Source: Moniliella sp. 'wahieum' (taxonomy: Eukaryota; Basidiomycota; Moniliellomycetes; Moniliellales; Moniliellaceae). From it: a DNA stretch of 64,000 nucleotides. The position numbers were made by a program, and so were the translations under genes. The first letter of the stretch is position 1; each line of letters starts with the position of its first letter. Positions 2,632 to 56,369 of this stretch are shown piece after piece. The stretch spans positions 17,501-81,500 of the forward strand of contig RSEE01000135.1 of the NCBI GenBank assembly GCA_003971905.1. The letters run 5' to 3'. The notes below the pieces were generated by a model. It saw only the letters and a list, made by a program, of their open reading frames with translations. It did not search any database and was not told the origin of the DNA.

Positions 2632-5600
2632 CCGAGGAGAAGAGAGGACGGGCCGCAGAGAAACAGAGTCAGACGGTGGCGGTGGCGCAGACGGTGGCGA
2701 GGGTGGTGGGTGAGTGTGCAGGTGAGAGGGATGGCGATGGTGATGGTACTGGGGGGGAATGGTAGGTCTGGGGGACAGTGGGGGGGCAGGGAGGGCCGCA
2801 GCTGTCTGAGCGGCGTGGGGGCGGGAGGGGAGAAAAGCGGAGCGGAGCGGAAGGGCGTCTCGGCCGTCGCGCGTGGGCGGCTGTGCGCTCAGACCGGGTG
2901 GACATAGTCATCACGCCCCGGGGTTCCGCCCGCGGCTGGTGGCGCAGCGCGCAGGCGCCCCGCCGCCTCAGATGCGCACGGCCACGCACCCTGGCCGGCG
3001 GAGACGACGCCGGGCCGATGCGTCCCACGGTTTCCGCTCATGGGGAAACAGTCGCCGACGCGTGTTTTGCTGCCCGACAAGCGGGGCCACTCGCCTCCTC
3101 CGCCGGGCTCGCACCCTCTGGCAGCAGTCCAGTGGCGCCTATTGGAGAGACGGGTCCGAAGTACTTCCCACACATACCCACCAGTCAGCCCTCTACACGA
3201 CAGCCTCGACTGCTCGCACTCTCTTCCGCGCACATGTATGGGCGATTCTCCGTCTGGCTCACATGCAGACGTTGGTGCTCTTCTGCCACTCTCGCTTATA
3301 TAGAAACGAGTGAAAAGGGAGTATAGAACCCCTTCGAAGATCCGTCTCGACGTCTCCACATACACACCTTCCCTCTGTTCAAAAAGGGGATCTGTTCCTC
3401 TCATACGCGAACGAGGTATACCTTTTGCTCTCGGTGGTTACATATAGTCTCCCACGCCAAGAACCACGGACGACTGTGTCCTATAGCTGGTGACATACGG
3501 ATGGCGGTAATGGGGCGAGGGAAAGAGGTACGAGAGATGGAGAGGACGTGTCGTGCAGTTTGTTCAACGAAAGAGAGCAGGCCTACTCGGCAGTACATTG
3601 ACTCACTAAGCGTGAGCGCTAGTGGCTCTCTCAGTTGGACGCACCAGAGAGCAGGCCTCCGAGGCAGTATCCATCCCCAAGCCTGTGCTCCCCATCTTCC
3701 CCATCAAGCATTGATAGGAACATACTAATGCATGTCACCATTCAGCCTATCTCTCCGTCCACTCTAATCTCTTGGGAGCATACACCACCGAAGCATCTGA
3801 GCACCTGTCATCAGCTGGCAATCATATCCTTCTCCAACAGTGTAACAGCGAATCTTGAACATGTTTGCAGGCTTTCTAGTACGCCCGACTCGGTGAGATA
3901 TTCGCGACGGTGCTGTAACCAACTTTGGCACCGTCTCAGGAGAAAAACAACAACGACTGTCATGGTGGTTTGAACGCCTCAGCAGGGCAGCCGTTACAAA
4001 AGTACCACTGCGGAAACTGCTTTACCAGTGGCTCTCTCAGTACGAAGCACCAGAAAGCAGACCAGCTCGGGAGTACAGTGACTAACTGCTCGGCAGTATA
4101 CATTGACTAACTAAGCGTGAGCAGAAGTGTCTCGCTCTGTGGGAGGCACCAGAGGTCAGTCTGTCGCGGCGGCAACAATTGCTCTGTCTCATCTCCTGAC
4201 TAAAAACATTAGACGCGGGCGCTCCAGGCGGCAGTTATATATGATCTGTCCTCGAGCTTCGTGATCGATAATTTGTCTCGGTGAGCGCTCCCTCCGGCAG
4301 TCCTCTTCAAGCCTCATTAAGCTCAGATGTGTGTCTCAGCCAGCATACCAGGCGGCGGTTGTATGTCTCAGATGTCTCAGGGCGCGCACCAGGCTACAGT
4401 TGTCCGTCTGAGCGGTTGCACCGGGAATGTACGAGTTGTTTCTTATCGAGCGCTTACCCCTTCGCCAGATCTTTAACATTCCGACTCCGTGAGCGCCCTC
4501 GTGACTATAACGGTAGCAGATCTCTGCGACGGTCTCCTCAGCCACATCGCTGGGAGCTCTTCGGCCGGGGGTTCGTGTTGCTCAATCAGCGAAAGGACCA
4601 TGCAATGGTTGAGTGTGTTCCTAACCCCGTTCCCCCCCGCCGCTTGGCGCACATTCCAGGAAGCCAGGCTGACAGGTCCCGCACGAGCGACAAGAAGAAA
4701 CTACGTGCGAACCTGAAGATCAAGAATCAGGAGAACGTCGAGGTCCGTGCTGCAGTCTCTCAGGTCACAGGTGTTGGTACTGTGCTGGTGCAATTGGTTC
4801 GCGGTTGCGAACACTCGAGCAGTGCAGCAACACATGATAGCTACTATTCCAGATAAGGGACTGACAACGACCCAGTCAACAGGTGCTTGGGCCGTCCTGC
4901 TCAGCTGTCCTGCTCGGATCCGGCGTGACTAGGCCAGTGCGCCACAGGTTGCAGGCCGACTCGGATCTTCTATTACCATATGGCAGGACCCACCAAGAAA
5001 TTGCAACCCTACTGCTCCCCCACCTGCACGTGACGGGGCTGGCTGCGCCGACTATCGGGCATATGGCAGAGTCGCGTCGACGCGTCCCTCCACCCACTTA
5101 AAATGCCCGCTACCCGTACTCACCGTCGGAGCCCCCATTGCAGCACCAACGCCCACACTGGCACACGGTGCCCCTTCAATCCACTCCCACGTTTGTGCCC
5201 CCACGGCCGTCGACCTGGCTACAAGACTGCCGCGGAGCGGTGGAGCAAGGAGGAGATGTGGAAAGCAATTGGGGTCTTTGCGACAAAAATAAGGTGGGGG
5301 GGGAAGGACAAGAAGAGGGGGGAGGACAAGAAGAGAGGGGAGGACAAAGTAGATTGGTGGAAGGATGGAGTAAGGATGATCGATGGTCCAGAGGTGGCGG
5401 GCTCGATCCATGTACCGTGAATTACGAGTCGCAGGCGGGCCCTGCCAGGGGTCTCACTCAGGTTGGTGGGGTACAGTCCCTTACGTGAAAGACGGCTCAC
5501 GGTAGTTTCGAGCCTGGGCTACGAGCGAGGAGGAGAAGCCTTTGGGCGTGAAGCCGAGGCGGCTGCACGCGTGGCAAGGCTGCGTATACGTAGATGTTGA

Positions 5601-52335: not shown

Positions 52336-52340
52336 GGTGG
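52336..52340. repeat. Target-site duplication, left copy
   Basis: GGTGG flanks the left LTR and is repeated at 56066-56070 after the right LTR. Five bp is the usual size for Ty3/gypsy integration. Confidence 0.85.
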
Positions 52341-52520
52341 TGTCACAGTCGGGGCTAAGGCGAGGGAGACCAGGATCAGACTAGGCCAAGGGTGTAGCAA
52401 TCGTTCGTGGGGAAGAAGCAAGAACAGAGGACATGGTGCGAAGTGGAAGGAACAGGGAAGGAGCGAGACGCTCGAGACGAAGAAATTGGAAATGGGAGCG
52501 AGATCAGCCAAACTATGACA
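52341..52520 (-). repeat. Left LTR (3' LTR of the element)
   Basis: 180 bp; begins TGTCACAGTCGG and ends AACTATGACA on the plus strand. Differs from the right LTR by one substitution (ACTAGG/ACTAAG) and one G. Confidence 0.95.
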
Positions 52521-52540
52521 TTGCCCCCTTTCAGACCTCA
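52521..52540 (-). other. Polypurine tract
   Basis: On the minus strand, CTGAAAGGGGGCAA directly precedes the 3' LTR. This is the expected plus-strand primer. It overlaps the stop codon of the integrase frame (52531-52533). Confidence 0.8.
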
Positions 52541-55500
52541 TCTCCCGGGCGGCGACGGAGGCGAGAGAGGGCGAGTCGGCGGGCATGGGAGACAGGCTTA
52601 TCGGGGTAGAGGGCGTGGAAACGGACCACTGGCTCGGCGTCATGAGACATGTCCGCAGCGGGTACCCACTCCCTCTCGTGGACAGGATAGCCCCGGAAGT
52701 GAACAAAGTACTCAATGCGGCCTCCACGACCCTTGCGGCGAGAGTCGAGAACATGTTCGACCTCGTGATGAACCGCACCATCATCAGCATACTCGGGGAG
52801 AGGAGGCGGGGGCTCGATCAAGCGGGCAGGGACCACGTCACCAAGGGTGTAGGCTCGCAAGCGGGACACATGGAACACGTCATGGAGGTGTAGGTAGTCG
52901 GGGAGGCGGACCTGGTACGCGGCGCGGCCCACGGCGCGGACAATGGGGAAGGGGCCGATGTAGCGATAGTCGGGGCCGTCAGAAGGCCGCTGGCTGGGCA
53001 CATACCCGTCCCGACGGACCAAGACAGGCTGGCCAGCAGTGAAGGAAGCCGCCTCGGTGCGCTGCTGGTCGGCATAATGCTTGTAGCGTGCTTGGGCCGC
53101 GGCGAGCGTGCGGTGGGCCACCGCCTGGGCCGAACGCAAATCCTCCAGATATGACGCAGCAGCGGGCACGGGCGAAGTGGAGGGCTCCAACTCCCCCCGG
53201 GGAGAGTAACCATAGGTGAGGACAAAGGGGGACTGGTGGGTGCTTGAGTGGGAGGACGAGTTGTAGGCGAATTCGGCCGTGGGGAGGAGGTCGAACCAGT
53301 TGGACTGCTGCTCGTCGAGGTAGCAGCGGAGGTACTGTTCGAGGATCTGGTGGAGTCGCTCAGTCTGGCCGTCCGTCTGGGGGTGGGACGCGGTGCTGAG
53401 GCTCGACTTGATGCCCAAGTCGGCACACAAGGCTTGCCAGAAGTGGCTTGTGAAGGTCGGTTCCTGATCACTCACCAGATCCCGGGGAAGGCCATGGTAG
53501 CGAAAGACATGGTGTACAAACTGGCGTGCGAGCTGGGGCGCAGTGTCCGTCGTGTGGGCGGGAATGAAGTGACCCATTTTGGTAAAACGATCCACCACCA
53601 CCAGAATCGCGTCGTAACCATTGGATCGGGGAAGCTGGGTAATGTGGTCCATCGTCAAGTGGGTCCACGGGCCTTGGGGAGGGGAAAGGGGCTGAAGGGG
53701 TCCGGCGGGTTGGTGGCAAGGCGCTTTGGTCCGTTGGCAGCGGTCGCACGAGCGCACGTAGGCCCACACGTCGGCTGACAGGCGGGGCCACCAATATTGA
53801 GCGCGGACACGGGCCAACGTCTTGTCGCGCCCTTCATGGCCCGCCAATGCCGAGTCGTGGGCGTGGTGGAGAATGGCAGCGCGGATCGGCCGGTCGCCGG
53901 GGACGTAGACCTGGTTTCCGTGCCACAAAAGACCGTCGCGGACCGTCAAAGCATGGCGAGGTGGGCTTGGAGCCGTAGCAAGGGACCAACGAGGGTCACG
54001 AGGCACGAGTTGGCGGATGCGCTGTCGAATCTCGTCGGCAGACACTCGCTCCACCACCGGTGTATCGGGGTCCGCCGCCATGAGCTTGAGGGCGGCGGCA
54101 GAACGTTCGGACATGGGCTCCGCCAGTACTTGAGGTGCCGCGCCAGCGGGCCGGGAGGGAACCGAGGAGGGAAAAGGAATCGAGTTGACAGAGGGGGGCG
54201 AGATGGGGTTAGATGAGGAGGTGGACTTGGGCCGGGGCCCGGGCGAGTGCTGGTGCTGGTGCTGGTGCGTAGTCTTGGTCTTGGGCTGGTCTGGGTGCTG
54301 GGGCTGGTCTTGGGGCTGGGGCCGGTCTTGGTGCTTGGGCTGGTCTTGGTGCTTGGGCTGGTCTTGGGGCTGGGGCTGGTCTTGGGGCTTGGGTTGGTCT
54401 TGGGGCTTGGGCTGGTCTTGGGGCTTGGGCTGGTCTTGGGGCTGGGGCTGGGCTTGGGGCTTGGGCGGGAGTTGGGGCTTGGGCGGGAGTTGGGGCTTGG
54501 GCTGGGCTTGGGGCTTGGGCGGGAGTTGGGGCTGTGGCCGGGGTACAGTCGTGGAAGGTATATGGTGATCACGGCACTGCACCTTGAGCGCGGCGCTCGG
54601 TGCGCCGGGCCGCCGCTTCAGCGGTGGCGGTGACTGCGCTGAGGTCCATGGGCTCCGCTTCGGGCGACGAGGGCCGAAACCAATGATTGCCGCCCGATCC
54701 CGGGGAGATTGCGGTACCATGAGCGCCCAGCGATTGCGATTGGTCGATGTCAATGGCCGCTGTGCGCAGTTGTTCGAAACTGATCCGTCCCAGTGAGCCG
54801 ACTCGCCGCGGGAGGCGATTGCGTCACGCACCCGCGGCTTCAAGCCGTACAGAAAGCAATAGTAGCGGTCCTCATCCGACGCGTTGGGGTTCCAGCGACG
54901 CAGCAGAACCGTGAACGTAGCGGAATAGTCCGCTGCAGATCCCGTCTGCCGAAGACGACCAAACTCCTCAAACGCCTTCAGCGCCGGGTTGCGCTCGCCC
55001 CACTGCTCCAGGAAAGCTGCGCGAAACGCAGGCCAAGACTGGAGGGCGGGTGTGGTGCGCGCCTCCAGGGGGAGGGCCACCTCCGAACCGAACTGCTCGA
55101 CCCAAGTGAGGGCCTCCCCCTGCAGCAGGCCCATGAAGCGGTCAATCCATGCCGCCGCGCCCATATGCGTGAGGGCGACGCGCGCGTAAATCTCGAAGGA
55201 GGTGACGACGTGCTGGGCCTGGACCCGGTCACGAGATGTGGGGTTCGCACCAGACGACGGGTGGAAACGAGCGGGCTCGAACATCTTCGGCTCTTCCGAC
55301 GCCTTGTTCGGGATGGCGGTCAGATCACCATAAGGCCCAGGGGCGGGAGCGGGGGCGGGGGCCGAGGACACCACGCCAGTCTGAGCCTCCCGTACCGAGG
55401 CGGCCAACCGGGCCTCTTCCGCGGCGAGCGCCGCCTCCTCCCGCCGCTGACGGAGGCGGTGCTCACGGCGCTTCGCCTCTTGCTCAGCCTCGAAAGCGCG

Positions 55501-55843
55501 GCGCTGGTCCTCCTGGGCTGCAAGGTAGGCCTGATTTTCCCGGGCCTCCGTCACAGAAGCTGGCGCATTCTGCGGGCCTCATCGACCCGGCGCTGAGCGG
55601 CCTCGAGGCCCAGCCCGGACAGGTCGGAGGCAGGCAAGGTATACCCCGGGGGCGCGGGCGCAACAGACGGCGCTGCATGGGGGGGTCCAGAGGGCCAGCC
55701 GGGTGGAACCACTCCGGGCCATCGTCGTCGAACGGAGCGTCAGAGGGGGGGTCGGACGGGGGTCGGATCGGGCCGCGCCGCGCGATGGGTTGCGGCGCGC
55801 TAGGGTTACTGGGGTCAGGGGGGTTGTCGTGGATCGAGGACAT
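52531..55843 (-). CDS. Gag - integrase - chromodomain polyprotein of the retroelement
   Basis: The frame probably starts at 55843 (MSSIHDNPPDPSNPS) and, after one shift near 55570, runs open for about 1,000 codons to 52531. It has an Arg/Glu/Ala-rich coiled coil, then a retrotransposon Gag domain (MGAAAWIDRFMGLLQGEALT, WPAFRAAFLEQWGERNPALK, RRWNPNASDEDRYYCFLYGL). A neighbouring frame near 54690 shows EPMDLSAV, the usual Gag tail, so a second indel is likely. Next is a tract of Pro/Lys/Gln repeats. Then come the integrase zinc site (HHAHDSALAGHEG with CDRCQRTK), the catalytic DDE core (LTMDHITQLP, DLVSDQEPTF, HPQTDGQTERLH) and a chromodomain (IEYFVHFRGYPVHEREWVPA). No protease DTG, no reverse transcriptase YxDD and no RNase H are present. 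Confidence 0.9.
54240..54545 (-). repeat. Pro-Gln coding minisatellite inside the retroelement
   Basis: About 300 bp of an 18-bp unit (plus strand CTGGTCTTGGGGCTTGGG) encoding repeats of PKPQDQ. It lies exactly where the protease-reverse transcriptase region should be. Confidence 0.9.
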
Positions 55844-55873
55844 CTCTGGTCGGGCTCGCCTGTTGACGGTTAG

Positions 55874-55884
55874 ACGAACGATAA
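55874..55884 (-). other. Primer-binding region, probably self-primed
   Basis: Two bases inside the 5' LTR the element reads ATCGTTCGT (minus strand, 55882-55874). The exact complement, ACGAACGAT, occurs inside the LTR itself (minus strand 55953-55945). This is the arrangement of Tf1/sushi elements, in which the RNA 5' end folds back as primer instead of a tRNA. Confidence 0.65.
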
Positions 55885-56065
55885 TGTCACAGTCGGGGCT
55901 AAGGCGAGGGAGACCAGGATCAGACTAAGCCAAGGGGTGTAGCAATCGTTCGTGGGGAAGAAGCAAGAACAGAGGACATGGTGCGAAGTGGAAGGAACAG
56001 GGAAGGAGCGAGACGCTCGAGACGAAGAAATTGGAAATGGGAGCGAGATCAGCCAAACTATGACA
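55885..56065 (-). repeat. Right LTR (5' LTR of the element)
   Basis: 181 bp; TGTCACAGTCGG to ACTATGACA on the plus strand, followed at once by the GGTGG duplication (56066-56070). Confidence 0.95.
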
Positions 56066-56369
56066 GGTGGTCTCGTCTGTTCGTTACGCGACAGACAGCT
56101 AGAAAGAGATCCATAGAGAGATCCACGCCGGCGCGCTTAGTAGCTTAGTAGCTACGCAGCACCTATCTCTCAGTGCCTTCTTGCATCTACCATGCCTTCC
56201 CGCCTTGGCCCACACCCACACCCACACCACAAACGAATACCCGTGACTGGTGACGATGCAATCAGCAAAAGCAGTCTCCCCTCCTCCCCAAAGCGCGTCG
56301 CCATATTATTCTCTTGGGAGCGCGTGCTCTCGCGCTCGCATCGCATCGCTTCCTTTCCCTTTGAGGTTG

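Follow-up and report, generated by a model that had tools for sequence, protein, structure and literature searches.

A recently amplified short form of a fungal Ty3/gypsy chromovirus, probably moved in trans by full-length relatives

Introduction

How could a retrotransposon that encodes no protease, reverse transcriptase (RT) or RNase H have moved recently? This question is raised by an element in a 64,000-nucleotide stretch (the window) of contig RSEE01000135.1 from the basidiomycete Moniliella sp. 'wahieum' (GenBank assembly GCA_003971905.1). The element is a structurally complete Ty3/gypsy chromovirus of 3,725 bp, located at positions 52341-56065 on the minus strand (Table 1). It is bounded by long terminal repeats (LTRs) and carries sequences for Gag and for an integrase with a chromodomain. 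We consider it highly likely that it represents a non-autonomous subfamily of single origin, which is moved in trans by full-length relatives and in which the integrase is a relaxed passenger.

An earlier note on this DNA had described a complete, recently moved element, and this description holds. The LTRs of the window copy are one substitution and one indel apart, and a GGTGG duplication and a polypurine tract are present. The TG...CA ends of the LTRs and the short target duplication are those of a Ty3/gypsy chromovirus. The same note had listed Gag and integrase-chromodomain without protease, RT and RNase H, which is borne out by Pfam. The long open reading frame (ORF; 52531-55578) carries Retrotrans_gag, H2C2, rve, a Tf2-1-like SH3 domain and a chromodomain, and no match to protease, RT or RNase H was found in it at E <= 0.001. 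TRIM and LARD elements are defined by having no coding domains; here, Gag and integrase were detected. Likewise, Gag is not the sole coding domain, as it is in TR-GAG elements, since integrase-chromodomain sequence is present.

Two deletions shared by 12 copies

Compared with full-length copies, the short form has two separate deletions, A and B, which flank a Pro-Gln minisatellite. Deletion A removed the zinc knuckle and the protease. Measured against 10 full copies, its length is 504 nt in four cases and lies between 499 and 506 nt in all. Deletion B, of about 1.7 kb, removed RT and RNase H; copies with indels give differing lengths for it. Given the length of 504 nt, deletion A appears to keep the reading frames. 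Deletion B also appears to keep the frame, as judged from the open pol frame that leads from the Pro-Gln tract into the integrase. The earlier note had assumed a single missing block with the minisatellite exactly at it, and both points need correction. In the full-length copy L061, the minisatellite sits between protease and RT and therefore is no deletion scar; by this comparison, it is the ancestral linker between the two domains. The length of the tract ranges from 187 to 354 nt across the 12 short copies described below.

The assembly searched contains the window and comprises 69.5 Mb in 223 contigs. A 191-bp probe across junction B had 37 candidates, all of which were scored. Twelve of the 37 matches (window copy included) cover the whole probe, and each of the others covers one side of it, left or right. 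At 10 loci, a left and a right match lie about 1.7 kb from each other. Junction A is present in all 12 short copies. The junction-B pattern matched 11 of these; the other one (C18) has a 1-nt gap inside but aligns across. The short copies are found at 12 different sites on 11 contigs, and 10 of them have exact 5-bp target duplications. Of the nine LTR pairs measured (those of C22, C6 and C3 lie outside this set), eight have no substitution, and the pair of the window copy has one. The defect is thus common to several independent sites, and full-length relatives exist in the same genome, as expected of a non-autonomous subfamily. The earlier note had reasoned that several copies with the same junction would indicate propagation of the deleted form. 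This is what the 12 copies with their own target sites show, and the lone random deletion considered there is at odds with the presence of both junctions in all 12.

The full-length relatives, a search for which had also been proposed, were found at 10 loci that keep the missing DNA: zinc-knuckle/protease and RT regions are present at all of them. Pfam analysis of pieces of two such loci detected protease, RT, RNase H and the zinc knuckle (the latter below cut-off). In L061, RT, RNase H, rve and Chromo follow each other in that order, so that the integrase has the C-terminal chromodomain of Ty3/gypsy chromoviruses. A gag probe gave 36 matches, 24 of them with at least 93% identity. These are the 12 short copies, the 10 full copies, a partial copy (C65) and one further match (C104). 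An RT probe gave 30 matches, 11 of them at 96% or above, namely the 10 full loci and C45, where the match starts within RT. An integrase probe detected 24 copies at 90% or above among the 40 scored of 42 candidates. A protein search for relatives with only Gag and integrase yielded six matches at E <= 1e-10 when the best 7,992 candidates were scored, and each of the six has a precomputed RT domain. Among these candidates, the search thus revealed no protein with the layout of the short form.

Other deleted copies were encountered. C12 (L066 2375-5564) is a different, older deletion derivative, seen once, in which LTR position 109 is joined straight to RT. The partial or deleted copies C65, C36 and C45 were each seen once as well; no systematic search for other deletion forms was made.

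Single origin and mosaic structure

In trees of a gag segment and of the integrase segment, one branch (support 0.88 and 0.997, respectively) has all short copies on one side and, on the other, all full copies with the older relative; alone, these trees do not root the short form. The short copies were divided into S1 (window copy, C22, C17a and C3) and S2 (the other eight), and the full copies into F1 and F2. The groups were set by eye from the trees before the site test, and the run test follows this grouping. There are 36 sites that split the four groups two by two, and they are arranged in three runs. Sixteen flank-type sites, at 748-1106 (6 sites) and 2918-3392 (10 sites), join S1 with F1 and S2 with F2. 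The 20 core-type sites, at 1209-2679, join S1 with S2. The third two-by-two pattern occurs at none of the 36 sites. Three or fewer runs are found in 36 of the 7.3e9 orderings of these sites. A further switch is located 5' of them. When five short and five full copies were compared at positions 248-640, the short copies were joined at 276-532 (6 sites; also at 248, with three states), and position 640 was flank-type.

Individual copies illustrate the pattern. The short copy C18 and the full-length copy C27 have no substitutions in their flanks (0/412 and 0/641) and 26/936 in the core (9/285 plus 17/651). Between C18 and the window copy, there are 34/1056 substitutions in the flanks and 6/935 in the core. 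C17a represents a third combination, its right flank being nearest to the full-length copy C17b (8/635 differences versus at least 13/640 for the four others compared). C130 has a full-length-type base at position 457, which may reflect a further, locus-specific exchange. The S2 recombinant type accounts for 8 of the 12 short copies, with one mosaic structure at the 36 scored sites. In these eight, a core specific to the short form is enclosed by blocks that match a full-length copy exactly.

These data indicate that the short form has one origin and then exchanged sequence with full-length copies. The single origin follows because the core substitutions and both junctions are common to all short copies. 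Independent origins in two backgrounds were considered and are ruled out by the 20 common core sites together with both junctions. The mosaics would best be explained by template switching between co-packaged short and full RNAs, and mosaicism with full-length copies in turn supports mobilisation in trans.

Selection on integrase and Gag

For the selection test, changes were polarised by older relatives, and group-majority states were used; the tests share data. Sites were left out when the four group states were not exactly two, when a group had only gaps, or when the outgroup majority matched neither state. A further 14 sites were set aside as class x, and the rows X_C65 and X_C36 were dropped from the alignments.

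In the integrase, the short lineage has 12 non-synonymous and 4 synonymous changes (12:4), and the probability of so few non-synonymous changes under neutrality is 0.66. The full lineage has 4:20, for which this probability rounds to 0.00000. The neutral expectation is 2.7:1, and the two lineages differ with a Fisher p of 0.0003. Gag does not show this contrast (Fisher p = 1.0). Its ratio is 4:7 in the short lineage (P 0.013) and 5:6 in the full lineage (P 0.054), with a neutral expectation of 2.6:1. The integrase contrast persists when S2-core changes are counted with the short lineage and other sets of outgroups are used: p is 0.007 with the nearest set, 0.0013 with the far one and 6e-5 with all. 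Gag again has no contrast. An earlier count that pooled gag and integrase had given 16:11 versus 9:26 (p = 0.010).

One replacement affects a motif. The Tyr of TAYHPQTDGQTE (L061) is a Ser in the window copy. At the underlying base, C7 has a gap and the 11 remaining short copies carry C. All 9 full copies compared carry A, and three older relatives have A, T and T. This position (2679) falls outside the selection test because the outgroup majority matches neither state.

Judged by its near-neutral ratio, the integrase of the short lineage is not visibly maintained by selection. Gag of the short form seems to change at a ratio like that of helper Gag, on small numbers.

Reading frames

According to the earlier note, the element has one largely open frame. 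This proved to be peculiar to the window copy, where 1 nt is missing near element position 1239, so that the end of gag is read in the frame of pol. The loss is absent from all other copies whose alignment extends over this place. In the unshifted frame, gag terminates with ...AQGAVP-stop a few codons past junction A, which is why the integrase can be reached only by a frameshift or from a start of its own. Among 18 copies compared, the window copy alone has also lost 1 nt near position 513. In the full-length copy C48, gag, which includes a CCHC motif, and the part that begins with protease are in different frames, the latter at +1, and overlap over a long stretch. The short copy C18 has noisy frames, and the gag-pol fusion in the window copy arises only via the 1-nt loss. 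Several copies, e.g., L073 and L076, have zero or few substitutions but several indels relative to their own group. The 1-nt indels may represent noise of a long-read assembly. Because they are typical of such noise, the frames of a single copy are a poor guide to its coding state.

Proposed mechanism and rival explanations

The two deletions, both at short direct repeats, probably arose by jumps of reverse transcriptase. They would have left the LTRs, the putative self-primer site, the polypurine tract, capsid Gag and integrase in the short form. Its RNA is most likely co-packaged with RNA of full-length relatives, which would supply protease, RT and RNase H, and by inference also nucleocapsid and integrase, for copying and inserting the short element. 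Template switching during copying would repeatedly have swapped parts of the short element for helper sequence. The integrase would be carried along as a relaxed passenger, and Gag would change at a helper-like ratio. That RT is borrowed from full-length relatives is well backed, because full-length loci exist and short copies carry blocks exchanged with them. To this extent, the non-autonomy proposed in the earlier note stands; in the functional sense, the own targeting integrase that was part of the proposal is not supported, given the near-neutral ratio.

Several points weigh against this scenario. The full-length copies are candidate helpers, recognised by DNA and domain matches, and the argument for trans-mobilisation draws on the mosaics. 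Constraint on Gag is suggestive, given the small counts. Part of the short-lineage divergence may predate the deletions, which would blur the selection test. From its ATG, gag is open across the examined stretch (about 180 codons) in 1 of 12 short copies and in 3 of 5 full copies. If these breaks are real and not assembly noise, most short Gags are broken, which disfavours a working short Gag. A more specific reading, which we put forward tentatively and as less likely than not, holds that the short form is a capsid-only parasite. It would survive through selection on its Gag, which lacks the zinc knuckle, with integrase decaying and parts being renewed by recombination with the helper. Its Gag may then join helper particles and favour its own RNA. 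If true, a non-autonomous retrotransposon of a fungus would undergo a cycle of modular renewal.

The mosaics could also stem from exchange at the DNA level, by gene conversion or ectopic recombination among copies already integrated, which is a further point against template switching. Such exchange would be expected to produce similar blocks, as the copies are dispersed and mostly more than 95% alike, and the base of C130 at position 457 perhaps reflects a locus-specific event of this type. We nevertheless regard DNA-level exchange as an unlikely source of the mosaics. The eight S2 copies have one mosaic structure, so that the recombinant was made before or during amplification, and frequent recombination has been ascribed to co-packaged RNAs for Onsen (PMC5668417). 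Equally improbable is a short element that keeps a working, self-targeting integrase in cis and borrows only protease, RT and RNase H. All four integrase domains (H2C2, rve, SH3 and chromodomain) are still detected by Pfam, and the ORF of the window copy is open from the Pro-Gln tract to the integrase end. Against this stand the ratio of 12:4 compared with 4:20, the replacement of Tyr in TAYHPQTDGQTE, with C in nearly all short copies at a base that is A in the full ones, and the stop of Gag just past junction A.

The deletions might also go back to splicing, with the spliced RNA then being re-copied. The sequence of deletion A permits GT...AG boundaries (AAG|GTGCGT ... GATAAG|GTGC). However, no GT...AG placement exists for deletion B within its 10-nt repeat, so splicing fails as the source of both. 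In addition, the short core carries common substitutions that point to a single origin and not to repeated splicing, and we consider this explanation very unlikely. An artefact would mean that the assembly is collapsed or that the window copy underwent a random deletion of its own. Practically no weight is given to either, even though the assembly contains many 1-nt indels. Both junctions recur at 12 loci on 11 contigs, mostly with their own exact target duplications, and the missing sequence is retained at 10 other loci of the same assembly. Collapse is ruled out by these 12 independent loci.

A pair of helper and parasite is a natural experiment, in which the same genes evolve in both within one genome. 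The comparison suggests which proteins remain necessary for the parasite. Gag may be among them, and integrase seems dispensable. Recombination between helper and parasite sequences is evident from the clean blocks that were exchanged. There is also a warning, as a domain that is retained in a young element is no proof of retained function.

Comparison with known systems

Tf1/sushi-type fungal chromoviruses resemble the window element in single features: the Tf2-1-like SH3 domain, an integrase with a chromodomain, and a stretch of LTR that could pair with the primer-binding site, which is putative in the window element. This likeness is one of features, not of an RT tree, and unlike these elements the short form has no protease, RT or RNase H.

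The short form resembles mouse IAP 1Δ1, in which one 1.9-kb deletion is reported to have created a gag-pol fusion that acts in cis (PMC6466679, PMC7411935). In contrast, the short form has two deletions, a gag and integrase that appear unfused in the unshifted frame, and an apparently relaxed integrase, and it belongs to a fungal chromovirus. Plant TR-GAG elements also work in a similar way, consisting of LTRs and a Gag gene, with pol functions thought to be supplied by full-length relatives; one case in Arabidopsis is described as shown to transpose (PMC8704663). Compared with their single Gag ORF, the short form retains integrase-chromodomain sequence, and its Gag is devoid of a zinc knuckle. 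The centromeric retrotransposon families of grasses, with CR2-Sb-B and noaCR5-Sb as non-autonomous examples, likewise contain non-autonomous subfamilies and prolific recombinants (PMC4079200). In most members of CR2-Sb-B, RT and integrase are described as absent or truncated, whereas the short form keeps integrase sequence and has defined shared junctions. New insertions of Onsen in Arabidopsis combine sequence from several family members, which is ascribed to co-packaging of their RNAs, and thus resemble the short-form mosaics; the accessible part of that source does not present them as exchange of a helper with a derivative that bears a deletion (PMC5668417). A survey of fungal LTR elements reports incomplete pol genes for most of those in its analysis of the most successful elements. 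Literature searches with limited coverage of subscription journals turned up no comparable Gag-plus-integrase family in fungi. The short form is a known kind of element, and its notable features are the two shared deletions around the linker, the exchange blocks with the helper and the apparent passenger integrase.

Features of the window element and its priming sites

The coordinates of all features are listed in Table 1. A complementarity as long as that between the LTR and the primer site was found in none of 2000 shuffled LTRs. Tf1-type elements are self-primed and have an LTR segment complementary to the primer site. Elsewhere in the window, a Zn2-Cys6 cluster protein is encoded, which points to a fungal host.

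Table 1. Features of the short element in the window (coordinates refer to the window)
Feature	Position	Strand	Basis
5' LTR, TG...CA, 181 bp	55885..56065	-	sequence comparison
Candidate self-primer, LTR segment ACGAACGAT	55945..55953	-	complementarity to putative primer-binding site
Putative primer-binding site	55874..55882	-	9 nt complementary to LTR 113-121
gag (capsid, Retrotrans_gag; without zinc knuckle)	54569..55843	-	Pfam, copy alignment
Junction A, 7-nt shared repeat AAGGTGC	54579..54585	-	alignment with full-length copies
18-bp Pro-Gln minisatellite	54272..54533	-	also in full-length L061
Junction B, 10-nt shared repeat TCCCRGCCCG (R = A or G)	54147..54156	-	alignment with full-length copies
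Integrase (H2C2, rve, Tf2-1-like SH3) and chromodomain	52531..54146	-	Pfam
Polypurine tract AAAGGGGGCAA	52521..52531	-	sequence
3' LTR, 180 bp	52341..52520	-	sequence comparison with 5' LTR
Target-site duplication GGTGG, copy 1	52336..52340	.	adjoins 3' LTR
Target-site duplication GGTGG, copy 2	56066..56070	.	adjoins 5' LTR

Unusual LTR insertions and lone LTRs

Two insertions consist of rearranged LTR sequence. The one at C190:507-810 (L003) combines a full LTR with LTR positions 121 to 1 in inverted orientation, separated by 2 nt, and is flanked by GGCCT on both sides. The turning point coincides with the candidate self-primer, which would fit copying of the primer strand. The other (C16:520156 onward; L030 1501-1737) is an LTR with an inverted segment (121 to 92), followed by the first ~25 LTR bases, inverted; it may mark a transcript start near LTR position 92. 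Both insertions fit self-priming of the putative Tf1-type kind. At C48:440942-446706 (L012, L013), a full-length copy has its 3' LTR inverted after the polypurine tract, and its two LTRs are identical in sequence.

In the LTR search, 40 of 448 first-look candidates were scored. Nine LTRs (L004, L008, L010, L014, L020, L022, L025, L026 and L029) have no other element sequence within 1.5 kb on either side, and seven of these nine are flanked by exact 5-bp duplications.

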